53,877 bases of DNA from Maricaulis sp. (GTDB lineage: Bacteria; Pseudomonadota; Alphaproteobacteria; Caulobacterales; Maricaulaceae): contig JAQXCQ010000059.1 of the NCBI GenBank assembly GCA_029251785.1, positions 1 through 53,877 of the forward strand, written 5' to 3'. The position numbers and the translations under genes are program-made. The stretch's first letter is position 1. Every line of letters begins with the position of its first letter. This document shows, piece by piece, positions 4,961 through 44,837 of the stretch. The notes below the pieces were generated by a model that was not told the DNA's origin, did no database searches, and saw only the letters and a list, made by a program, of their open reading frames with translations.

Positions 4961-6762
4961 GCGTACCGATCTCCGACATGTGGCCCGTCGTTGATACACA
5001 TATTTGCCCGCTGTGGGTAAGATCGCGTTACAGCGAGCCGTTGAATATCCATAATATCAGCAAATACGGCATGAGCGGTGGGCCAGCGCCCGGCACCTTT
5101 GCCGAAAACGCTGACCTCGCCCTGGGGGAGATGAATGATGAAACCATTGGCTTCCTCTTTAAGGCTGGCGAGGCGGTGACTGACGGGCAGTGCGCGGATT
5201 TCAACGCTCGCCCTGATGCTGCCATCGCGAGATGCCGAACAGGACCCAATCTGTTTAAGGACGAGGCCCTGTTCAGCAACGGCGCGGATGCGCCCGGGGG
5301 ATAAATCATTGAGGCTCTGTCGCGATATGGCGCGTGGCTCAATGGCGATGCCAAAGGCATGTCGGATGATGATGGACAATTTGTCTGCGGCGTCGTGGCC
5401 GTCGATATCGGTGCTCGGGTCGGCTTCGGCGAAGCCGGCATCCTGTGCGCGCTTTATGGCATCCTCCAAGCGTTCACCTCGTTGAAGTTGTCCAAAAATG
5501 TAATTGCATGTGCCGTTCATGACGCCGTCTACAGCCATGATCCCGGCGTGCGCTGAAAGCCGATCAAGGGTCTCCAAAATGGGGGCGCCGCCGCCGACCG
5601 CTGCCGTGTATTTCAATGCCCGCTTATTGCGAGATGCGAGTTCGTGTAGAAGAGCGAAATCTTGCGCCATTATTGCTTTGTTTGCGGTGACGAGATGAGC
5701 GCCGTTGCGCAGAGCCGTTTGGCTAAGGCTACGGGCAAGGTTGAGACCGCCCATGAGTTCCACCACGATATCGGGATCATCGGCAAAACTCTCCTCTGCC
5801 TGGTGTGTGAATGTTAGTCCTGATCTGGCTTCTGCATCATGCTGTACTGGATCTCGCACCAAAACGGGATTGAGGATGAATCGATTTGGGTGTGCCAATA
5901 GGTGCTGGCACACGCCGGCTCCGACTGCACCATGGCCTAGGACTGCGACCCGTAATGGCGCAGCTGAACGCGCCAATCCGACCCGTCGCTGTTCTCGTCC
6001 AATTTTCGTAGCGTATCCCTTGCCAACGGCGGCGACTTCGATGGTGAGGTCATGTTCCTGGGCAGCACAGATCGCCTTCGATTGTACCAGGCCGCGACTT
6101 ATACGGGCGGCATCCTCATAACTCACACATTCAAGACGTTGCGCATCGGGGTCGATGCGTGGATCCTCAGAATAAACGCCGTCGACATCCTTGATCAGCC
6201 GTGCGCGACTGGCCCCGAGCCAGTGCGCAAACATCACAGCGGTCAAATCTGTGCCGCCTCTCCCTAGTGTGGCCGGGCCATCGATGCCCTCACCGAAAAA
6301 GCCGGGAGCGACGATGACGTCGGCAGTTTCCAGATGCCTGAGAACGCGGTGCGCGTCCAAACCGACTAGATTGGCGTCAAGCGCGTCGCCTTGTGCCTTT
6401 AATCCCATTTCGTGGGGGTCGAGAACGGCGACCGGAATGCCGGCACTTTCCAGCGCCAAGCCCATCAGTGCGGCAGATTTGAGTTCCCCATTGCGAACCA
6501 ATCGCGCAACCAATCCGGCGTTTTTGGAACCGCCCATGCTCTCTGCCAGATTAAAGAGCGCGTCGGTTTCTCCTGCCAGCGCCGAAACCACCGCCACAAC
6601 TTTTTCACCGGCTCGGGTGTGCCGATAAATTTCGTGGGCGGCTCGAGCATAATCTTCCGTATTACGAAGCACCGAGCTGCCGAATTTTAGGACGGACAGC
6701 TTGTGGTCGGAGAGTTGATTTCCACATCGCGGTTCTGGTGGGCAGGGGGAGGAGAGTTTCAC
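4957..6762 (-). CDS. thrA: bifunctional aspartate kinase / homoserine dehydrogenase lacking ACT domains
   Basis: The N-terminal aspartate kinase begins at VLKFGSSVL (residues 24-32) and includes GFFGEGIDG, TLGRGGTDLTA and DVDGVYSEDPR. The homoserine dehydrogenase begins at VLGHGAVGAGV (Rossmann loop, about 274-284) and has VTANKA, NGTCNYI and EADPSTDIDGHDAADKL. The kinase ends and the dehydrogenase begins within about 20 residues, leaving no room for the two regulatory ACT domains of E. coli ThrA (820 aa). The chosen start is GTG 6762, with AAGGA eight bases upstream. ATG 6810 is open but lies directly on the T-tract of the attenuator and has no ribosome-binding site. First gene of thrABC. 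Loss of ACT suggests loss of allosteric threonine feedback, which the upstream attenuator may replace. Confidence 0.95.
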   Translation of the reverse strand: MKLSSPCPPEPRCGNQLSDHKLSVLKFGSSVLRNTEDYARAAHEIYRHTRAGEKVVAVVSALAGETDALFNLAESMGGSKNAGLVARLVRNGELKSAALMGLALESAGIPVAVLDPHEMGLKAQGDALDANLVGLDAHRVLRHLETADVIVAPGFFGEGIDGPATLGRGGTDLTAVMFAHWLGASRARLIKDVDGVYSEDPRIDPDAQRLECVSYEDAARISRGLVQSKAICAAQEHDLTIEVAAVGKGYATKIGREQRRVGLARSAAPLRVAVLGHGAVGAGVCQHLLAHPNRFILNPVLVRDPVQHDAEARSGLTFTHQAEESFADDPDIVVELMGGLNLARSLSQTALRNGAHLVTANKAIMAQDFALLHELASRNKRALKYTAAVGGGAPILETLDRLSAHAGIMAVDGVMNGTCNYIFGQLQRGERLEDAIKRAQDAGFAEADPSTDIDGHDAADKLSIIIRHAFGIAIEPRAISRQSLNDLSPGRIRAVAEQGLVLKQIGSCSASRDGSIRASVEIRALPVSHRLASLKEEANGFIIHLPQGEVSVFGKGAGRWPTAHAVFADIMDIQRLAVTRSYPQRANMCINDGPHVGDRYA

Positions 6763-36601: not shown

Positions 36602-36650
36602 TGGTGCCGCAGGGGAGAATTGAACTCCCGACCTCGTCATTACCAATGAC
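36602..36650. repeat. attachment-site repeat, distal copy (tRNA-Thr remnant)
   Basis: These 49 bases are identical to 44763-44811: the CCA end, acceptor strand, T arm and anticodon arm of tRNA-Thr read on the minus strand. Identity stops sharply at both sides (base 36601 versus 44762, and 36651 versus 44812), marking the crossover segment. The upstream half of the tRNA is missing here, so this copy is not a functional tRNA. Confidence 0.92.
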
Positions 36651-36755
36651 ATCGTTTTGATTTCCTGCTGTGTCACCAAGTGCCATATAGCAGCATAATA
36701 TCAGCGTATTATAATCACCAACATTCCTGTAGATGGCCTGTGTTTCCCTGAGAGT

Positions 36756-36775
36756 TGTATCCCGCCTGTATCCCG
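36756..36775 (+). repeat. paired 9-bp repeats, candidate integrase arm sites (left)
   Basis: TGTATCCCG occurs at 36756-36764 and 36767-36775, an 11-bp period, between the distal att copy and the integrase. The same pair with the same spacing and orientation lies at the other end (44695-44714), as expected for arm-type binding sites. Confidence 0.65.
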
Positions 36776-36820
36776 GTATGCTTTATTGCCCGATATCGGC
36801 GCATTTACTCGGAGTGCGAA

Positions 36821-38071
36821 ATGGCGAAGGCTAGAATAAACAAGCGCGTGCTGGACGGTTTAAAGGTCGGCGACCAAGTCTGGAGCACCGAAGTGCGTGG
36901 CTTTGGAGCGCGACATCGTAAGACTGGCGTCTATTTCCTTCTGAAGCGGATGGTCGCCGGGACGCGGCGAACAATTGCCATTGGCCGGTATGGCGAAAAC
37001 CCCGACGACATGAGCATAGCCGAAGCGCGTGCCATCGCTGACCGGCTTATAGGCAAGATTGCGCAGGGGATAGACCCCACGGATTCCAAGCGCCTGCTGG
37101 AATCGTCATGCACACTTGAAGAACTTTCCAAGTCGTTCATTCTTCGATGCGAACAAAAGCGTCTCAAGGAGCAGACGATAAAGAGTTATGAGCGCGTGCT
37201 GGACCTTTATCTTGTCCCTGAACTGGGGCGGGCCAAGGCCCTGTCGGTGACGGCGAGGCAAATATCCAACCTACACACCAAAATATCGAATATGCCCCGT
37301 CCCGAAAAGGGCATCAAAAAGGGTGGTCCCTATATCGCCAATAGGATGCTCGCGGTCGTCAGTTCGATGTTTAGCTGGGCAGTTTCATCGGGAACCTTCC
37401 CACCCGGCACACGCTCTCCGGCGGAACACGTCGAGCGAAATGCTGAACTGAAGAAGCAGCGCTTTCTTGCCCCGGATGAAATGGTGCGCTTGGGCAAATC
37501 ATTGGCATTATTGGAAACAACAGGCTGGGATTTGGACGATGACCGCAAAGTCCTCCCTGCGCCGCACCCAGTTGCTGCCATTCGCCTATTGATGCTGACG
37601 GGCTGTCGGCTGCGCGAAATTCTTCAACTCAAATGGTCGGAGGTGAATTCCGACATTGGTGCATTGATACTGGATGACAGCAAAACCGGCGCGAAGACTG
37701 TACCGTTGTCAGATGACGCATTGCTCATTCTTGAGGACCTGAAAAAGTTCAAATGGAGCAAGTTTGTATTCCCGTCCTCGACAGACGACGAGCGCCCGCG
37801 CGTGGATTTGAAGCGGCCTTGGGCGGCAGTAACCGAACACGCTGATTTGGCAGACTTACGTATCCATGACCTGCGTCACACCTTCGCGTCGTTTGGTGTC
37901 AGTCAGAACATCAGCTTGCACGCGGTTGGTGGGCTCCTTGGGCATGCTCAGTCGAGCACCACGCACAGATACGCTCATCTGGCATTAGACCCGCAAAGAC
38001 AGGTGGCGAACACAATTTCTGGACCGATTGCCAGTGCGCTTAAGGTCAACGCGAACGAAGTGGAGCGCTGA
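36821..38071 (+). CDS. tyrosine recombinase (P4-like integrase)
   Basis: The 416-residue product from ATG 36821 (MAKARINKRVLDGLK), with GGAG six bases upstream, integrates and excises the element. An N-terminal arm-binding domain (VGDQVWSTEVRGFGARHRKTGVYFLLKR) is followed by a SAM-like core domain and the catalytic domain. Visible catalytic residues: R in LTGCRLREILQL, K in the DDSKTGAKTVPL turn, HDLRHTFAS (His-x-x-Arg), the second His in LLGHAQSS, and Tyr in THRYAHLAL. An upstream in-frame start at 36755 would cover the arm sites and is rejected. It lies immediately inside the left att copy. Confidence 0.95.
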   Translation: MAKARINKRVLDGLKVGDQVWSTEVRGFGARHRKTGVYFLLKRMVAGTRRTIAIGRYGENPDDMSIAEARAIADRLIGKIAQGIDPTDSKRLLESSCTLEELSKSFILRCEQKRLKEQTIKSYERVLDLYLVPELGRAKALSVTARQISNLHTKISNMPRPEKGIKKGGPYIANRMLAVVSSMFSWAVSSGTFPPGTRSPAEHVERNAELKKQRFLAPDEMVRLGKSLALLETTGWDLDDDRKVLPAPHPVAAIRLLMLTGCRLREILQLKWSEVNSDIGALILDDSKTGAKTVPLSDDALLILEDLKKFKWSKFVFPSSTDDERPRVDLKRPWAAVTEHADLADLRIHDLRHTFASFGVSQNISLHAVGGLLGHAQSSTTHRYAHLALDPQRQVANTISGPIASALKVNANEVER

Positions 38072-38189
38072 TAGTTGGTTTATGTGCCGGTTCTTCGGTT
38101 CTGACGAGGCGGTTGGTCTGAGGGTTCTAATTTCTGGATGAGAGGCCTGTCATGTTGAGTGAGTGTCAGGAACGCTGAGGGAGGGGAAA

Positions 38190-38948
38190 ATGAATAAAGA
38201 CGCCGACACAAGTACGGACAGAAATACTCCGGTCCCAAATCAAAATTCGGACTCAGTGTTTGAGTGGCCGGTTATGCCGCCGCATTCAAGTCTCTATCAG
38301 GAAATGCCAACAATCGAAAATTACGTTAAACTGCGCAGGTCCAATCCTGAAAATGTCGAGGCGGTCAAAATAACATCAGGGTTGGATTGGTTGTTTTCGA
38401 ATAGCCAGCATCTTACCGATATGGGGATTGAGCCTGGCACATTTGCGAAGGCGCTCGATGCCAACAAACCAGCTATTTCCGAAGTGAGCCTTCGATTATT
38501 GGAACTGCTTGTCGAGCGACAAAAACTAAAATCGGATGGTGTTACGCACGCCGTGGGGCGGGGCGAAGCTGTTTCGGATTCTTTGGTGAATTACATAATT
38601 TCTATCATGCTGGACGCACTTGATTGGGCGGGGGGTATGACCCTGCCTCGTGATTTGCTCGTGCTCATTCGATATCAAATCAGCGGGGACAGATCCACGC
38701 ACGAGAACACCCAAAATCAAAAACATGCACGGCAGCAAGCTATCAGTCTTGCGGTGCAGTTGCGGGAGCAGGGGAAGTCAGGAAGCCTGAGGCAGGTTGC
38801 AAAACTTATGCAAGTTAGGCCGTCCACCGTTTCGCGATGGTTTGAAGACCAATCTTTTGAGGATGCCGTGGCGTTTTGGACGCCATTAATGACCGGCCCT
38901 GCGGCGGATGACCTCCGTGCGCTGGCCAAGAATGTGCTCTCGAATTAA
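38190..38948 (+). CDS. DNA-binding protein of the element, C-terminal HTH
   Basis: The 252-residue protein from ATG 38190 (MNKDADTSTDRN), with GAGGGG upstream, has no family I can name. The N-terminal part is polar. The middle is helical. Near residues 205-235 the sequence LRQVAKLMQVRPSTVSRWFEDQSF is a clear helix-turn-helix of the homeodomain-like/resolvase type. It lies downstream of the integrase on the same strand and may regulate the element. An in-frame start at 38163 adds nine residues without a ribosome-binding site. Confidence 0.7.
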   Translation: MNKDADTSTDRNTPVPNQNSDSVFEWPVMPPHSSLYQEMPTIENYVKLRRSNPENVEAVKITSGLDWLFSNSQHLTDMGIEPGTFAKALDANKPAISEVSLRLLELLVERQKLKSDGVTHAVGRGEAVSDSLVNYIISIMLDALDWAGGMTLPRDLLVLIRYQISGDRSTHENTQNQKHARQQAISLAVQLREQGKSGSLRQVAKLMQVRPSTVSRWFEDQSFEDAVAFWTPLMTGPAADDLRALAKNVLSN

Positions 38949-39067
38949 CACCTGAGCGAAAGCGTTTAAGAGTGTTGCGTCCATAAACGCGTGCGCAACA
39001 CATGCATCGATTGATACCCATTGCCTCGTTCGCCGGGATGTTCCGGCAAATTGATAACGAGGTAGTG

Positions 39068-39271
39068 ATGATACAACCCGAAAACCCTCTGCTGGATGCA
39101 CCAGCTACATCGCAGTGGCTTGGTCTTTCTATAAGCAAGCTGGCGAAAATGCGTCTGGACGGTACCGGCCCCAAGTACGCGAAACTTGGCGTACGTGTGG
39201 TTTATCGCCCTGACGACGTGAACGATTGGCTCGATGCCCACATAAGGCAGAGCACCAGCGATGTTCAGTAA
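39068..39271 (+). CDS. AlpA-like / MerR-type HTH excisionase or activator
   Basis: The 67-residue protein from ATG 39068, preceded by GAGG, has the AlpA/HTH_17 layout: PLLDAPATSQWLGLSISKLAKMRLDGTGPKYAKLG, then RVVYRPDDVNDWLDAHI. In P4-type satellites AlpA activates int and helps excision. The open frame reaches 39002, but MIQPENPLLD has the only plausible ribosome-binding site. It probably controls integrase expression or excision in this element. Confidence 0.8.
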   Translation: MIQPENPLLDAPATSQWLGLSISKLAKMRLDGTGPKYAKLGVRVVYRPDDVNDWLDAHIRQSTSDVQ

Positions 39272-39286
39272 AGTCCAAAATTAAAG

Positions 39287-39323
39287 AACCCCAGCGCCGT
39301 CCGCAAAACAGACGCTGGGGTTT
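39287..39323 (+). terminator. hairpin after the AlpA-like gene
   Basis: AACCCCAGCG (39287-39296) pairs with CGCTGGGGTT (39313-39322) over 10 bp around a 16-base loop, with a T-run of only three. It may stop transcripts before the next small genes or may stabilise the RNA. The short T-run makes intrinsic termination uncertain. Confidence 0.55.
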
Positions 39324-39353
39324 GCAACTTACCCATCAGAAAGGATAAATCTT

Positions 39354-39548
39354 ATGACTATTGTACCGCCTTTATGCCCTATCTGCAACGTGCCTGAGTG
39401 TGACTGTGACGCAGAGAACTTTGACTTTCAGTCTTCATGCCAAGCCCGCGCTGCTCGCAAGGTTGCCACTCAGTACGGATTGGAAATGACCCATGCTTGC
39501 TTGATTGTTGAGCTTGCTGGCATTGCCACGGGAGGTCGCCATGCGTAA
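39354..39548 (+). CDS. small Cys-rich protein of unknown function
   Basis: The 64-residue protein (MTIVPPLCPICNVPECDCD...) has a CPIC and a CDC in its first 20 residues, arranged like a small zinc knuckle. The remainder is helical (SCQARAARKVATQYGLEMTHACLIVELAGIA). AAGGA precedes ATG 39354. The stop overlaps the next gene's start region. It is the first of three tightly packed small genes. No homologue known to me; a DNA-binding adaptor role is only a guess from the Cys pattern. Confidence 0.6.
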   Translation: MTIVPPLCPICNVPECDCDAENFDFQSSCQARAARKVATQYGLEMTHACLIVELAGIATGGRHA

Positions 39549-39849
39549 GCGCGCTCTTCCAATCATCGAATTCGTTGTGGCTGCGAACGACAACAACATC
39601 CAAACAGCCACAGGACGCGCCGCAGAGACGCTTCTGACGCTCGTCACGCGTGGTGACGCCGGTGTTACGGCCTTCGACTTCAAAGGGGGGCCTGCCTACC
39701 GCCTGTCGGCTTACATCGCCGCGTTGCGCGACATCCCCTTGAGCATCATCACAGTACGCGAGGAGCACGATTGCGGCTGGCACGCCCGGTACGTCCTCCA
39801 CACCACTGTGCGCATCATCAGCGTGAAGGGGGCGGCCAATGACAACTAA
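39541..39849 (+). CDS. winged helix-turn-helix protein
   Basis: From ATG 39541 (MRKRALPIIEFVVAANDN), with GGGAGG eight bases upstream, the 102-residue protein shows the HTH_39-type winged helix: AETLLTLVTRGDAGVTAFDF, YRLSAYIAALRDIPLSIITV, then GWHARYVLHTTVRII. This fold is common in prophages and satellites. It overlaps the previous stop and shares bases with the PC4-like gene that follows, so translation is coupled. It is likely a DNA-binding regulator of the element. Confidence 0.7.
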   Translation: MRKRALPIIEFVVAANDNNIQTATGRAAETLLTLVTRGDAGVTAFDFKGGPAYRLSAYIAALRDIPLSIITVREEHDCGWHARYVLHTTVRIISVKGAANDN

Positions 39850-40087
39850 TTTGCCCGTCCTCATCGACCAGTGGGAACGCTCCAACCGTGAGGTCATCCG
39901 CGTTCAATTGACGGAATTCAATGGCAACAAGCTCATTGAAGCGCGCATCTTTCATCAGCAATACGGTGATGAGTTTGTGCGCACCTACAAGGGTCTGTCG
40001 TTGGGGCTCAAACACTTCCCCCGCCTGCTGAAAGCGCTGACCGAGGCAGACCTTGTAGCGGCTAAACTCAACTTGAAACGGGACTGA
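39839..40087 (+). CDS. PC4/YdbC-like ssDNA-binding protein
   Basis: The 82-residue protein matches the transcriptional coactivator p15/PC4 fold: REVIRVQLTEFNGNKLIEARIFHQQYGDEFVRTYKGLSLGLKHFPRLLKALTEA, four strands and a helix with basic residues. Prokaryotic members bind single-stranded DNA and occur in phages and satellites. ATG 39839 overlaps the winged-helix gene by 11 bases, with AAGGGGG six bases upstream. It may protect or coat ssDNA when the element replicates. A strong palindrome follows four bases after the stop. Confidence 0.8.
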   Translation: MTTNLPVLIDQWERSNREVIRVQLTEFNGNKLIEARIFHQQYGDEFVRTYKGLSLGLKHFPRLLKALTEADLVAAKLNLKRD

Positions 40088-40091
40088 TGTA

Positions 40092-40121
40092 TTCACGGCG
40101 TGGCCCAGGCCACGCCGTGAA
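40092..40121. repeat. perfect 14-bp palindrome with 2-base loop
   Basis: TTCACGGCGTGGCC (40092-40105) is the exact reverse complement of GGCCACGCCGTGAA (40108-40121), with loop CA. There is no T-tract, so it is not an ordinary terminator. It lies between the PC4-like gene and the winged-helix gene and could be an operator, replication or cruciform site. Confidence 0.9.
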
Positions 40122-40525
40122 TGCCAGATATTATGATGATAAAAGCGACCAAATTTACCGACCGCTCGCACGCGCGAATATACAGCACGTGGATGAGGCT
40201 TCCTGCTTGGCGGCGCATGGGCGTCCACGCCCGCGCCTTGCTGGTGGAAAACATGGCCATGTACCGACCGCGCGAACCCAACAGCTTCGAATGGTCTGCA
40301 CGCAAGGTGGAGTATTTGCTTCGCTGTAGCCGAGGGACTGCCTGCAAGGCTCTTGCTGAGCTTGTGACCTGCGGATGGCTGCGGCAGGAGCGTGCCGGGC
40401 GTATCAACGGGCCTAGAGCGACGCGACCTGCCGTATATTCACTGACAATGTTCGGAACAGATTCGGATGACAGGCCCAGCAACGCATTCTTGAAATGGAA
40501 GCCGACCATTCCCGAAACGGACTGA
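40121..40525 (+). CDS. winged-helix protein, possibly replication-related
   Basis: The 134-residue product contains a winged-helix segment: ARALLVENMAMYRPREPNSFEWSARKVEYLLRCSRGTACKALAELVTCGWLRQERAGRI...AVYSLTMF. This resembles the DNA-binding domains at the start of satellite or plasmid replication-initiator proteins, but no replication motif is visible. The start is uncertain: ATG 40121 overlaps the palindrome, and ATG 40133 or 40136 are alternatives; none has a clear ribosome-binding site. Confidence 0.65.
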   Translation: MPDIMMIKATKFTDRSHARIYSTWMRLPAWRRMGVHARALLVENMAMYRPREPNSFEWSARKVEYLLRCSRGTACKALAELVTCGWLRQERAGRINGPRATRPAVYSLTMFGTDSDDRPSNAFLKWKPTIPETD

Positions 40526-40827
40526 TGGCGTTTTCCGGTCAGACGGAGCGAGGGAGAACTTTTGACAAATGGCGCGAAAACGTACCACGAACGTCCCAAA
40601 GCGAGGCAACGAAGCGCCCAAAATGTTTCCACGGCGGGTGATTTACTTATACCGCCCAAAACTGGTGTTCCACTGCCACGCAAGGCTCGGGCGACATTTG
40701 ACCCGGTTGTCGAAAATTCTGATGATGCCAGCTATTATATATAATATGCGCGTTCCCGACATCGCCCCGCTACGCCCATCCTAGTATTTGCGGCGCGCGC
40801 TCGGACAGGGCGGGGCCTTAGCTAAAT
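40526..40827. other. 302-base stretch without a convincing gene
   Basis: Two overlapping plus-strand frames (40562-40744 and 40569-40784) are open, but neither has a recognisable domain; the first has a GGGAG before a TTG and is the more protein-like. A TATATATAA run lies at 40737-40745. The stretch sits at the convergent junction with the minus-strand gene pair. I see nothing else in it. Confidence 0.4.
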
Positions 40828-41343
40828 TTAATGCCCGAGAATCTCGCGTTCTGCGAAAGACCTTATTGAGCCCAGAGCCTCCGGGCCGCCAATGTGCTCG
40901 TATCGAAATCGGCGGCCATCCAGCCCGCTCAGGTCAATTTTGTGGCCCCCGAATGAGTATGAGCGCCGGTAGCGTCCGTTAATTTTCCATCGTGGCTCAG
41001 CAATGTCGTGTGCGAATGCGTTTCTAATTTGGTAAATCACTGCAATGCATTGGTCGTTTTCGGACTCTATCGGGTCGGGTCGCTGAATCTTACTTTCCTC
41101 GAGTGTTCGGTTCAAAGTTATCGCCGCTGCCCCAAATGCAATAACCAAATTGTTCTCCAGAGCCAGTATAAAGTCGTCTGAGGTTCCAAATATTTCTTCT
41201 GGAAGTGCGAAAACCATATTCGCCTCCTCAAACCGAAGCGGGATATCCAGTTTATCCAAGTCAATATTTCCGTCGAGGCCGTAGTGGTAGAGCTTCCAAG
41301 CGAAATGCAGGTTTGCGAAGGCAGTGGGTAGGTATCGCATCAT
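40828..41343 (-). CDS. protein with an RNxxxH motif (HEPN-like), possible cargo/defence gene
   Basis: The 171-residue protein from ATG 41343 (MMRYLPTAFANLHF; GAGGAG lies four bases upstream, and ATG 41340 is equally possible) is mostly helical. It has DQCIAVIYQIRNAFAHDIAEPRW; R-N-x-x-x-H is the active-site signature of HEPN ribonucleases, found in many toxin and abortive-infection proteins. A following segment, RRSYSFGGHKIDLSGLDGRRFRYEHIGG, is typical of related small proteins of unknown function. It lies 64 bases after the immunity/VasI-like gene on the same strand. Function is inferred only from motif and context; RNase activity is not shown. Confidence 0.65.
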   Translation of the reverse strand: MMRYLPTAFANLHFAWKLYHYGLDGNIDLDKLDIPLRFEEANMVFALPEEIFGTSDDFILALENNLVIAFGAAAITLNRTLEESKIQRPDPIESENDQCIAVIYQIRNAFAHDIAEPRWKINGRYRRSYSFGGHKIDLSGLDGRRFRYEHIGGPEALGSIRSFAEREILGH

Positions 41344-41407
41344 CGTGCTCCTCGAAATCGACTTAGATTGCGTCGTTTGGTTTTTGGTCAATCTGGCAAA
41401 GCCGATG

Positions 41408-42667
41408 TCACCAGCTGCAGGCTTCGCGAAGAGGGCCGATGCGGGCCCCCAAGTCTTTGACATGAAACCGCACGGTTCTCGAGTTTTCACCATACGGCGT
41501 ATAGCGGAGGGTCAAGTGTTCTGGATTGGCCGAGAGCAAGCGGCGAATGAACGGTATGCTCGAACCACCGCGCCAGTAACCGAACGCCTCTCTGTTGGTT
41601 GAGATGCCGAGTGTGTCCCGAAAGGCAGAGGCATCGCCGACGCGCCACTCCACAGCGAGTGTATCCGTTCCGAGAAACTCACCTCCGTTCACAACCAAGG
41701 CGGTGGTGTCCTCGACACAACGTACCGTGAGCCGCACTTCGATTTCACGTCCGTAGCGTCCAACCACATCAGAAACGGGGTCCACTGACAGGAAGTGGTT
41801 GGTAAAATCCGTCATTTGCGATTCACGCTGCGAGTGACGCCACTGACGCCCCAGATTAGGCGTACTTGGCTGACCGCCACTTTGAGAGCCGAAATTCCGA
41901 ACCCCGGCTCTCTGTTCAGCTCTGACGGCTTCCAATTGCTCGCTTGTCGCCACAACAGTTCCGTCCAGAGCCTCAATTCTTACGATGTGCTCAAGTATGG
42001 AGTCTCCACGAAACTCGATAGACGCAATAACCTGAAAATCTGCGTGCCGCCCCCCTTCGGCGAAGTTTCCAACCAGCGGCAAGCATATAACCTCGCCTTG
42101 ATAATCTGCCAGCACAGTATCGCTGTCGGATGCCCAAGCCTCGCTTCGCGCCAATTCAAAGAACGCACGCGCTTCGCTTATCGCACGTGTGCAGGCGCCG
42201 ATGCGAGCAAACTGTTCTTGTCGCTCTGGACTGGGAGTGGCGCTTTCGCGATTTGGGGTGGTCATGATGAGCGGCCAGACGGCAAAGCCAACCAATATGG
42301 CAGCGGCGGTCAATCCAGCCCCGATAATGTAAATTCGGTCTTGGCGGGTTAATGCTTCGAAATTGGTTTCAATTTCTTCGGGGCGGCTATCTCTTTCATT
42401 TTCGGGTGACTGATAGGTGGAAATCACATTTGACCCCGCACGGCTTTCAACCTGCGTCGTTGACCAAATCAGGGCGACCACCCAACCCACGAATGTCCAT
42501 CCGAAAAACAAATTCACGAAGAATATGGGCATTGTATTGTGATGCCCCCTACTGAGGGCGACCATCCAAGGCAGAAAGTGAAGCACCACAAGCAAGGTTA
42601 TTAAAAGCATAGAATTGACACCTGTTGTTTCAACCGCCAGACAACTCACCCATAAGTCGTCAAACAT
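41408..42667 (-). CDS. superinfection-immunity-like membrane protein fused to a VasI-like domain
   Basis: From ATG 42667 (MFDDLWVSCLAVETTG; GGAG five bases upstream) the protein has about 419 residues. The N-terminal 70 residues match the T4 Imm-type superinfection immunity family: LLITLLVVLHFLPWMVALSRGHHNT, then MPIFFVNLFFGWTFVGWVVALIW, two membrane helices. A third helix follows near 111-133 (IYIIGAGLTAAAILVGFAVWPLI). The C-terminal 140 residues (about 280-419) carry the VasI/TagO-like pattern: RCVEDTTALVVNGGEFLG, WRVGDASAF, FIRRLLSANPEHLTLRYTPYGENSRTVRFHV, PLREACSW. The domain combination is unusual. It leads the two-gene minus-strand cargo with the HEPN-like gene. A role in blocking phage DNA entry is inference from the N-terminal family. 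Confidence 0.7.
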   Translation of the reverse strand: MFDDLWVSCLAVETTGVNSMLLITLLVVLHFLPWMVALSRGHHNTMPIFFVNLFFGWTFVGWVVALIWSTTQVESRAGSNVISTYQSPENERDSRPEEIETNFEALTRQDRIYIIGAGLTAAAILVGFAVWPLIMTTPNRESATPSPERQEQFARIGACTRAISEARAFFELARSEAWASDSDTVLADYQGEVICLPLVGNFAEGGRHADFQVIASIEFRGDSILEHIVRIEALDGTVVATSEQLEAVRAEQRAGVRNFGSQSGGQPSTPNLGRQWRHSQRESQMTDFTNHFLSVDPVSDVVGRYGREIEVRLTVRCVEDTTALVVNGGEFLGTDTLAVEWRVGDASAFRDTLGISTNREAFGYWRGGSSIPFIRRLLSANPEHLTLRYTPYGENSRTVRFHVKDLGARIGPLREACSW

Positions 42668-42844
42668 TACCACTCCATCTATTGGGGGCAAATAAATACA
42701 ATACTAGCGCCATTTGTGGACAGTAATCAGAGACGGGAAAATGATTGGTAGGGACTGTCATCAACACCAAAGTTTTGTTAAATTCAGCACTCAAAAACCT
42801 GTGGCGTCGACGGATGCCTCGCCGAAGTCCGGATTAGCATTTTG

Positions 42845-43240
42845 ATGACTGCGCTAGATAACCCACGCCACGAGCGTTTCGCCCAAGAATTGGCCACCGG
42901 CTTGCCTCAGACCACCGCTTACGTAAGGGCTGGTTACAGACCTGACCGTCGCCACGCATCACGTCTGGCGTCAAATGGCGACATTCAGGCGCGTGTAGAG
43001 GGATTTCAAGAGGAAGCGGCCCTGCAAACGGGCGTGACCATCGAAACAGTGAACGAGAAGCTGGAGACCGCCTTCCTCGCGGCACAGGCGATGGGCAATG
43101 CATCCGCAATGACCGCCGCAGCGATGGCGCAGGCGAAATTGCATGGCCTTATCGGTCGCGGGCGCAAGCTGAGCACCGCCAGTGGCGAAACACCGGACTT
43201 TACGGTTGACTTCCTCGACACGGACGAACACGCCCGATAG
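42845..43240 (+). CDS. phage terminase small subunit (orphan)
   Basis: The 131-residue product from ATG 42845 shows the TerS-like HTH domain: HERFAQELATGLPQTTAYVRAGYRPDRRHASRLASNGDIQARVEGFQEEAA, followed by a helical oligomerisation part (VNEKLETAFLAAQAMGNASAMTAAAMAQAKLHGL) and an acidic tail. TerS recognises the packaging site and pairs with TerL in phages. No TerL is present here. In phage-inducible islands an orphan TerS diverts helper-phage packaging. ATG 42845 is preferred over TTG 42842. Confidence 0.8.
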   Translation: MTALDNPRHERFAQELATGLPQTTAYVRAGYRPDRRHASRLASNGDIQARVEGFQEEAALQTGVTIETVNEKLETAFLAAQAMGNASAMTAAAMAQAKLHGLIGRGRKLSTASGETPDFTVDFLDTDEHAR

Positions 43241-43358
43241 CGGGCGAAACAAGGTGCCAGGGTATGTTGTCTGGTCGTAGCGCTTGTCGCCTAGTAAAAA
43301 ACCGAAAGACCGGCGCACATCATTCAATTAGATTGCTGCCCAGTTCCTAGGGGTGATT

Positions 43359-44600
43359 ATGAATAAACGTAATGGCTATGTTCTAAAAATACTGGCCGCC
43401 ACTGTGTTGCTGTTGGTAACCAATTTTGCATCCGCTCAGAGCGACTTGGAAAGTCGTTCGAGTCTGATTGAGGAAGAGGACCTTAGCGCCACCCGCGCCG
43501 CCGCGGAACAGGGCTTTGCGTTCTCGCAGTACATTCTCGGTGCCCTCTACAACGATGGTGTAGGGGTCCCCCAAAATCGCACCGAGGCCGCGCGCTGGTT
43601 CCGACTGGCTGCCGAGCAGGGCATGGCCGAAGCGCAAACCGGTCTCGGTGTCCTCTACAACGATGGTGTAGGGGGCCCCCAAAATCGCACCGAAGCCGTA
43701 CGTTGGTTCCGATTGGCAGCCGAGCAAGGGTTTGCTGTAGCCGAATACAATCTCGGTACTCAGTATCAGAACGGGCAAGGTGTTTCGCAAGACTATGCCG
43801 AGGCAGCACGCTGGTTCCGATTGGCAGCCGAACAAGGACTCGCTGAGGCGCAGAACAGTCTCGGCATTCGGTATCAGAACGGGCAAGGTGTTTCGCAAGA
43901 CTATGCCGAGGCAGCACGCTGGTTTCGATTAGCTGCCGAACAAGGACTTGCTCAGGCGCAGTATAACCTTGGTGTCCGCTATCGCCTCGGTCAAGGCGTC
44001 CTGCAAAGTCACACGGAGGCGGCTCACTGGAACCGTTTGGCCGCAGAGCAGGGGCTGGCCACTGCGCAGTATAACATTGGCGTGATTTATCACGACAGCG
44101 AAGACGTCCCGCAAGACTATGCCGAGGCAGCACGTTGGTTCCGATTGGCTGCCGAACAAGGACTTGCTGAGGCGCAGTATTCGCTTGGTGCCCAGTATGA
44201 CTTCGGTCAAGGCGTCCTGCAGAATCACACGGAGGCGGCTCACTGGTACCGTTTGGCCGCGGAGCAGGGGTTGGCAGCTGCGCAGTATAACCTCGGCGTG
44301 ATGAATCGCGACGGTCAGGGCGTCCTGCAAGATTACGCCGAGGCCGCTCGCTGGTACCGTTTGGCCGCCGAACAAGGGCGTGCTGACGCGCAATACAGTC
44401 TCGGCGTCCTGTACGCCCGCGGTCACGGGCTTTTGCAGAATTATGAATTGGCACATATGTGGTTCAATATAGCTGCCTTAAACGGCGGAAACTCTGACGG
44501 GCGGAGCATCGTTGCCGAGGGCATGACATCCGAACAAATAGGGCGCGCTCAAGAAATGGCGAGGGTTTGCCTTGCGTCAGGATATGTTGATTGCGGCTAA
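43359..44600 (+). CDS. secreted Sel1-repeat protein with near-identical repeats
   Basis: A signal peptide (MNKRNGYVLKILAATVLLLVTNFASAQ) is followed by nine tandem 36-residue Sel1 repeats of the form AEQGxAxAQYxLGxxYxxGxGVxQxxxEAARWxRLA. Adjacent repeats are near-identical in DNA with a 108-bp period (compare 43763 with 43871). A short C-terminal tail has two Cys. Sel1 repeats bind other proteins. AGGGG lies five bases before ATG 43359. It is the last gene before the right att copy and is transcribed toward the tRNA. The role in the element is unknown; surface display or effector-like function is possible. Confidence 0.85.
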   Translation: MNKRNGYVLKILAATVLLLVTNFASAQSDLESRSSLIEEEDLSATRAAAEQGFAFSQYILGALYNDGVGVPQNRTEAARWFRLAAEQGMAEAQTGLGVLYNDGVGGPQNRTEAVRWFRLAAEQGFAVAEYNLGTQYQNGQGVSQDYAEAARWFRLAAEQGLAEAQNSLGIRYQNGQGVSQDYAEAARWFRLAAEQGLAQAQYNLGVRYRLGQGVLQSHTEAAHWNRLAAEQGLATAQYNIGVIYHDSEDVPQDYAEAARWFRLAAEQGLAEAQYSLGAQYDFGQGVLQNHTEAAHWYRLAAEQGLAAAQYNLGVMNRDGQGVLQDYAEAARWYRLAAEQGRADAQYSLGVLYARGHGLLQNYELAHMWFNIAALNGGNSDGRSIVAEGMTSEQIGRAQEMARVCLASGYVDCG

Positions 44601-44694
44601 TTCGGGTTCGACCGCTCTCCATTCACGCATACGGCTTGAAATAAGACGATTAGGTGGCTCAGCCATACCCGCATGGCATGTTTTCGTGCCGAGC

Positions 44695-44714
44695 TGTATC
44701 CCATGTGTATCCCG
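44695..44714 (+). repeat. paired 9-bp repeats, candidate integrase arm sites (right)
   Basis: TGTATCCCA (44695-44703) and TGTATCCCG (44706-44714) repeat with the same 11-bp period and orientation as the pair at 36756-36775. They lie about 50 bases inside the tRNA-Thr att copy. Confidence 0.6.
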
Positions 44715-44762
44715 CGCCAATTTTATCAAATGACCAACAGCGTCGATATTGTTGTGTGGCAA

Positions 44763-44811
44763 TGGTGCCGCAGGGGAGAATTGAACTCCCGACCTCGTCA
44801 TTACCAATGAC
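44763..44811. repeat. attachment-site repeat, tRNA copy
   Basis: These 49 bases are shared with 36602-36650 and comprise the CCA end to the anticodon stem of tRNA-Thr. They form the att core from which the element would excise. Confidence 0.92.
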
Positions 44812-44837
44812 GCGCTCTACCCCTGAGCTACTGCGGC
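44763..44837 (-). tRNA. tRNA-Thr (anticodon GGT), CCA encoded
   Basis: On the minus strand the cloverleaf reads from GCCGCAG (44837-44831) to CTGCGGC-A-CCA (44773-44763). The anticodon loop is TTGGTAA, so the anticodon is GGT for ACC/ACT. The T arm GGGAG-TTCAATT-CTCCC is intact. Its 3' half serves as the integration site of the 8.2-kb element. The gene remains complete. Confidence 0.93.

Follow-up and report, generated by a model that had tools for sequence, protein, structure and literature searches.

Do two adjacent genes on an integrated island of Maricaulis sp. form one coupled antiphage system, or were two phage-conflict genes recruited separately? The question arose for a stretch of 53,877 nucleotides (contig JAQXCQ010000059.1 of assembly GCA_029251785.1, called the window below), in which a sequence-only reading had described a two-gene minus-strand unit: a membrane protein, here P0001, with a T4 Imm-type superinfection-immunity region and a VasI/TagO domain, and a small helical protein, here P0002, with an R-N-x-x-x-H motif. 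It had proposed that the membrane protein is a sensor coupled to a HEPN-type RNase. Both open reading frames (ORFs) were found as described, on the same strand and 64 nt apart (table 1). We tentatively favor the reading that the island carries two independently recruited phage-conflict genes, a candidate superinfection-exclusion protein (P0001) and a candidate HEPN RNase (P0002). In P0001, the VasI/TagO domain would be held, probably on the periplasmic side, by a transmembrane hairpin of T4 Imm type together with a third membrane helix, and the protein would work at the envelope to keep the genomes of incoming phages out. P0002 would be an abortive-type effector whose Arg107/His112 pair cuts RNA, without metal, while the cell is infected.

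The Membrane Protein P0001 and Its Relatives

Profile searches bore out the domains that had been called on P0001. Both Pfam domains scored above their curated cut-offs (PF14373, E 2.1e-17, 63.2 bits against 27.9; PF11319, E 9.9e-7, 29 bits against 26.5), and the PHROGs families agreed, with phrog_1039 ("immunity to superinfection") on residues 17-73 (E 1.3e-23) and phrog_1848 on residues 272-419 (E 1.2e-19). The NCBIfam equivalog for VasI of the type VI secretion system (T6SS), TIGR03360, stayed far under its cut-off (16.2 vs. 124.2 bits). Hydropathy gave three membrane stretches, two of them N-terminal and the third at about residues 111-137. Past this membrane part there are four cysteines (159, 195, 317, and 417), and all four were retained in the sole full-length relative found (genome G028, locus L048; 37-42% identity over residues 19/21-419).

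Among the 137 genomes of the host family, 70 matched P0001 (E <= 0.001), nearly all of them through PF14373 in short stand-alone frames, while a match across both domains occurred only in G000 and G028. The N-terminal domain is thus widespread, and its fusion to VasI is rare. One further genome (G057) matched the VasI part alone. Matches were also obtained in 980 phage records and 23 plasmid records, none of which (0/980 and 0/23) reached a P0001 coverage of at least 80%, and a single-sequence scan of viral contigs returned no relative. A search with alignment A2, made of P0001 and the G028 relative, kept 80 loci of 132 relatives; the matches listed all concerned the N-terminal part, and the VasI part had no tblastn match (E <= 0.01) in any of the 80 loci. 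No report of an Imm-VasI fusion was found in the literature searched, which is not proof of its absence from print. A TagO match in PMC6372524 was rejected, being the name of an author and not the protein.

The G028 relative lies within a prophage, directly after a CI-type repressor and on the same strand, which is a typical lysogen-expressed position. Five annotated VasI neighborhoods were opened. The VasI gene was near a CI-type or helix-turn-helix (HTH) repressor, on its strand, in Labrenzia phage vB_LagS-V1 and Phaeobacter pP66_i (2/5); it lay in an accessory stretch in the P2-like phages 500465-2 and P88_4B11 (2/5), and amid unnamed genes near an anti-repressor and tail genes in Pasteurella phage Pmp1 (1/5). 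That VasI genes lie on the repressor side suggests that the "T6SS TagO" proteins of temperate phages may be exclusion proteins, expressed in the lysogen, rather than secretion components. A T6SS role for the VasI domain is unlikely, because the sheath gene VipB was not found in the host genome (0/1; 3.16 Mb, 95% complete) by a search whose control was detected in E. coli. All six stand-alone VasI proteins read by eye had a hydrophobic, signal-like N-terminal stretch; these starts and the four kept cysteines fit a periplasmic VasI domain, which in P0001 is probably held by the Imm-type hairpin. We infer that exclusion is the likeliest role of P0001. The genes of temperate elements, annotated as "type VI secretion / TagO", that lie by a CI-type repressor and on its strand are those of loci L189, L193, and L048.

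The Small Protein P0002 and Its Neighborhoods

P0002 had no family match in Pfam, NCBIfam, PADLOC (2.0), or PHROGs. Its motif was present as had been read (R107-N-A-F-A-H112). Alignment A3 used 17 of the 19 genome-contig loci; L015 (positions 6001-6483, a relative with one in-frame stop in a Rhodospirillaceae genome bin) and L026 (a fragment in two pieces) were excluded before counts were made. The consensus was IR[NC]xF[AS]HxxxxPxW, with I106, R107, F110, H112, P117, and W119 invariant in all 18 aligned rows, and since Arg and His stand in every row, the motif is not a chance one. Position 108 was Asn in 13 rows and Cys in 5; E82, at the end of helix 2, was Glu in 11 rows and Asp in 1.

The family is patchily spread over alpha- and gammaproteobacteria and beyond. 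Relatives were present in 3 of 137 host-family genomes and 2 of 385 genomes sampled from the class (counts that include the window's own genome), and were collected at 19 loci in genome contigs, on one viral contig (L131, a prophage), and on one large Catenovulum plasmid; none was matched in 50,697 phage records or, by single-sequence scan, in viral contigs. Identity reached 59% between alpha- and gammaproteobacteria; taken with the patchy distribution, this suggests that the gene moved horizontally.

Around 21 P0002 loci a rough gene caller gave 108 neighboring ORFs, which were passed as a set through PADLOC and Pfam (83 families each, the best 25 of 83 seen), and 30 of them, picked by eye from 13 loci, were scanned singly with PADLOC. 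Matches at E <= 1e-10 were obtained among the singly scanned neighbors in 5 of 13 loci (L009, L012, L013, L024, and L131), a count made without control regions and one in which the L131 match is a DNA methyltransferase only. The P0002 relative stood beside SIR2 and DUF4747 at L009, an integrase and a TIR protein (PADLOC class PDC-S35) at L012, a HEPN_Swt1 protein at L010, and a MauJ-type protein and the methyltransferase in the P2-like prophage of L131 (phage type by eye); the distant member at L024 adjoined a type I restriction gene. The neighbors at L013 were ThsA-Macro, FRG (below cut-off), PIN_12, a PDC-S06 ATPase, and PDC-S52. The neighbor set as a whole also gave hits to AriA, mad3, MzaA, and PDC-M34A. 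Two of these places deserve mention in their own right: positions 2186-10740 of L013 (Pseudoxanthomonas sp. PXM03) form a dense defense island in which several genes were unrecognized by PADLOC, and the MauJ-family protein of L131 (5767-6879) has R-N-A-L-A-H, a second Rx4H candidate. The defense-type neighbors of some relatives support the sequence-only reading; other relatives lie among housekeeping genes.

Several observations weigh against the favored reading at this point. Relatives of P0002 were found beside hemB (by eye) and a pyridoxal phosphate enzyme (L008), mutS (L018), gcvP (L022), and among sugar-metabolism genes (L006), and the defense context, set against no matched control, is suggestive only. 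PF14373 is frequent in chromosomes and not diagnostic alone, and the sole predicted model of P0001 was useless (predicted local distance difference test [pLDDT] 42.5). An alternative would be that P0001 is an envelope-modifying island gene unrelated to exclusion, for example fitness cargo, and that P0002, though HEPN-like, regulates by binding RNA and does not cut it. The wide occurrence of stand-alone PF14373 frames, the Cys at position 108 in part of the rows, and the housekeeping neighbors all suit it. On the other hand, Arg and His persist in 18/18 rows despite divergence elsewhere to about 20% identity, which fits a catalytic site, and VasI genes occur at phage and prophage positions. We regard this alternative as unlikely, although it survives better than those considered below.

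Is P0002 a HEPN Protein?

According to PMC3710099, HEPN domains carry an Rx4-6H motif at the end of the third helix in helix order, a polar residue (N, D, or H) after the Arg is "typical", in many families an acidic side chain of helix 2 lies close to the motif, and DUF4145 (PF13643) is placed in clan CL0291. The AlphaFold model of P0002 (pLDDT 94.0, predicted template modeling score 0.87) has helices at residues 4-23, 55-83, 95-111, and 156-168; R107 falls in the final turn of the third helix, and H112 comes immediately past its end. The modeled helix order and motif place fit those published for HEPN. The protein had been called helical, which is right; the model adds two beta-hairpins, between helices 1 and 2 and between helices 3 and 4.

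When the P0002 family was compared by hhalign with 148 targets, DUF4145 ranked first (score 21.4). The comparison used 19 of 22 places for DUF4145, 13 of 16 for PF05168, 2 of 3 for HEPN_MAE_28990, and 1 of 2 for pEK499_p136, the others being dropped as below cut-off, broken or short, or by choice; the controls were 136 neighbor ORFs and reversed sequences. Mixed-direction reversals scored 16.7 and 13.1. In the register with DUF4145, N108 and H112 stood over its Asn and His, and R107 over Gly.

Several results speak against a HEPN assignment. The probability for DUF4145 was just 2.85%, the best of the 136 unrelated proteins scored 19.7, near its 21.4, and the controls were single sequences set against an alignment for DUF4145, which biases the ranking toward DUF4145. 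The HEPN profile PF05168 did not match the family (hhalign 9.8), and the alignments with MauJ and pEK499_p136 were out of register. A Pfam HEPN family was hit by only 1 of 18 family members (E 0.15), a PDB sequence search with P0002 gave no HEPN match, and neither Foldseek (best E 2.2 and 1.1) nor VIA returned a HEPN fold from the PDB or the viral library, an absence that is inconclusive by the tools' own notes.

These misses are what would be expected if P0002 belonged to an unrelated helical family with a chance Arg-x4-His signature. Such an origin appears improbable to us: the motif's position relative to the helices is exactly the published one, the residue after the Arg is polar in 13 of 18 rows, DUF4145 ranked first, and the misses of Foldseek and VIA carry the limit just given. 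Overall, P0002 likely belongs to the HEPN superfamily. The proposal that it is a HEPN protein stands on the invariant Rx4H, the modeled motif place, and the first rank of DUF4145, and lacks a fold match; the structure prediction neither proves nor refutes it. Profile searches recovered PF14373 and PF11319 on P0001; for P0002, profile comparison gave DUF4145 a first rank at low probability.

Do the Two Genes Belong Together?

The claimed coupling was the most exciting part of the sequence-only reading, and the relatives do not bear it out. No terminator-like site was found between P0001 and P0002, which may be co-transcribed, and a purine-rich stretch before each ATG (GGAG and GAGGAG) gives each gene its own ribosome site. 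Full-length P0001 had no tblastn match (E <= 0.01) in any of the 21 other P0002 loci (3.1 to 12.5 kb each; in 4 of them the contig ends no more than about 0.6 kb away on one side), and relaxing the threshold to E <= 1 brought a single chance-level match. No P0002 relative better than E 0.88 was found in 18 kb around the P0001-type gene of G028. The pair was thus not seen together elsewhere, and these distributions suggest that the relatives of P0001 and P0002 travel apart rather than as one coupled system. A membrane-gated abortive system, in which P0001 would sense phage entry and release P0002, an RNase of a family absent from defense libraries, to stop the infected cell, is suited by the shared strand, the short gap without a terminator-like site, and the record of both protein kinds as phage-conflict genes, but it is made very improbable by the 0/21 loci, the G028 fusion without P0002, and the separate ribosome sites, and keeps what little standing it has because just one independent P0001 fusion is known, so that a recent pairing inside this island is possible.

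The Island and Its Setting

The two genes had been placed in a satellite-like island, and the sequence around them agrees. The integrated DNA, 8.2 kb long, is delimited by two exact copies of a 49-nt direct repeat (36602-36650 and 44763-44811) that corresponds to the 3' part of tRNA-Thr(GGT). Within it, the P0001-P0002 pair is flanked by a replication-type gene and a terminase gene; integrase and excisionase-like HTH genes are also inside (table 1). A Pfam scan of the 10 island ORFs found no phage structural or lytic genes except the terminase small subunit. The island also encodes a secreted-looking Sel1-repeat protein (window 43353-44600) with near-identical 108-nt repeat units and nine Sel1 stretches. 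The 253-residue HTH protein of the island has a relative (47% identity) next to an integrase in G077 (L143/L144, G077:C187), which belongs to the same genus; judging from these genes, G077 may hold a related island.

Table 1. Coordinates of the two genes, their domains, and the features of the island (positions in the window)
Feature	Position	Strand	Basis
P0001, 419 aa, candidate superinfection-exclusion protein	41408..42667	-	PF14373 hairpin, third hydrophobic helix, C-terminal VasI/TagO; frame from ATG 42667 to stop 41408
PF14373 (Imm_superinfect) stretch of P0001, residues 29-69	42461..42583	-	Pfam
PF11319 (VasI) stretch of P0001, residues 309-419	41411..41743	-	Pfam
P0002, 171 aa, HEPN-like, candidate metal-independent RNase	40828..41343	-	ORF, motif, model; frame from ATG 41343 to stop 40828
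Rx4H motif R107-N-A-F-A-H112 of P0002	41008..41025	-	Sequence and alignment
Integrated island	36602..44811	no strand	Bounded by exact 49-nt repeat from tRNA-Thr 3' part
tRNA-Thr (GGT), intact, attachment-site tRNA	44763..44837	-	ARAGORN; Rfam tRNA
Tyrosine integrase	36815..38071	+	PF00589 E 4.5e-21; Arm-DNA-bind_3
Small HTH, excisionase/AlpA-like	39071..39271	+	HTH_17 E 2.7e-4 (below its cut-off); phrog_66 excisionase E 6.9e-5
Replication-initiation-like protein, weak	40121..40525	+	phrog_186 E 3.2e-4
Terminase small subunit	42842..43240	+	PF03592 E 1.6e-6; phrog_51 E 1.9e-12

Comparison with Known Systems

The island resembles satellites of the phage-inducible chromosomal island type, as characterized in PMC6092414, in its integrase, small HTH regulator, terminase small subunit, tRNA-type direct repeats, and cargo genes. 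It differs in size (8.2 kb vs. 12-15 kb) and in a replication module that is weakly recognized, the HTH/excisionase match being weak as well.

Like the HEPN superfamily of Rx4-6H RNases, of which DUF4145/PF13643 is nearest, P0002 has four main helices and usually a polar residue after the Arg, and its relatives occur beside conflict genes. Unlike that superfamily, it has no detectable match to a solved HEPN structure, carries beta-hairpins between its helices and the additional invariant P117 and W119, and is missed by all four libraries.

T4-type Imm proteins are short and stand alone. P0001 shares with this family (PF14373, phrog_1039) the N-terminal hydrophobic hairpin, above the Pfam cut-off, and differs in the third helix and the large VasI domain to which the hairpin is fused. 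T4 Imm blocks phage DNA injection on superinfection, according to PMC11436027. With VasI/TagO (PF11319, phrog_1848; the "T6SS-associated TagO" of phages), P0001 shares its C-terminal 110-150 residues, a conserved Cys pattern, and the setting as phage or prophage cargo; in place of the signal-like N-terminus of the stand-alone proteins (6/6) it has a membrane hairpin, and no T6SS sheath gene accompanies it in the host genome.

What is new here is a HEPN-like family missed by four libraries and an Imm-VasI fusion. P0001 joins two domains of phage cargo, Imm and VasI/TagO, and the P0002 family, with a fixed Rx4H site and members in some defense islands, is a testable addition to the catalogues of phage defense.
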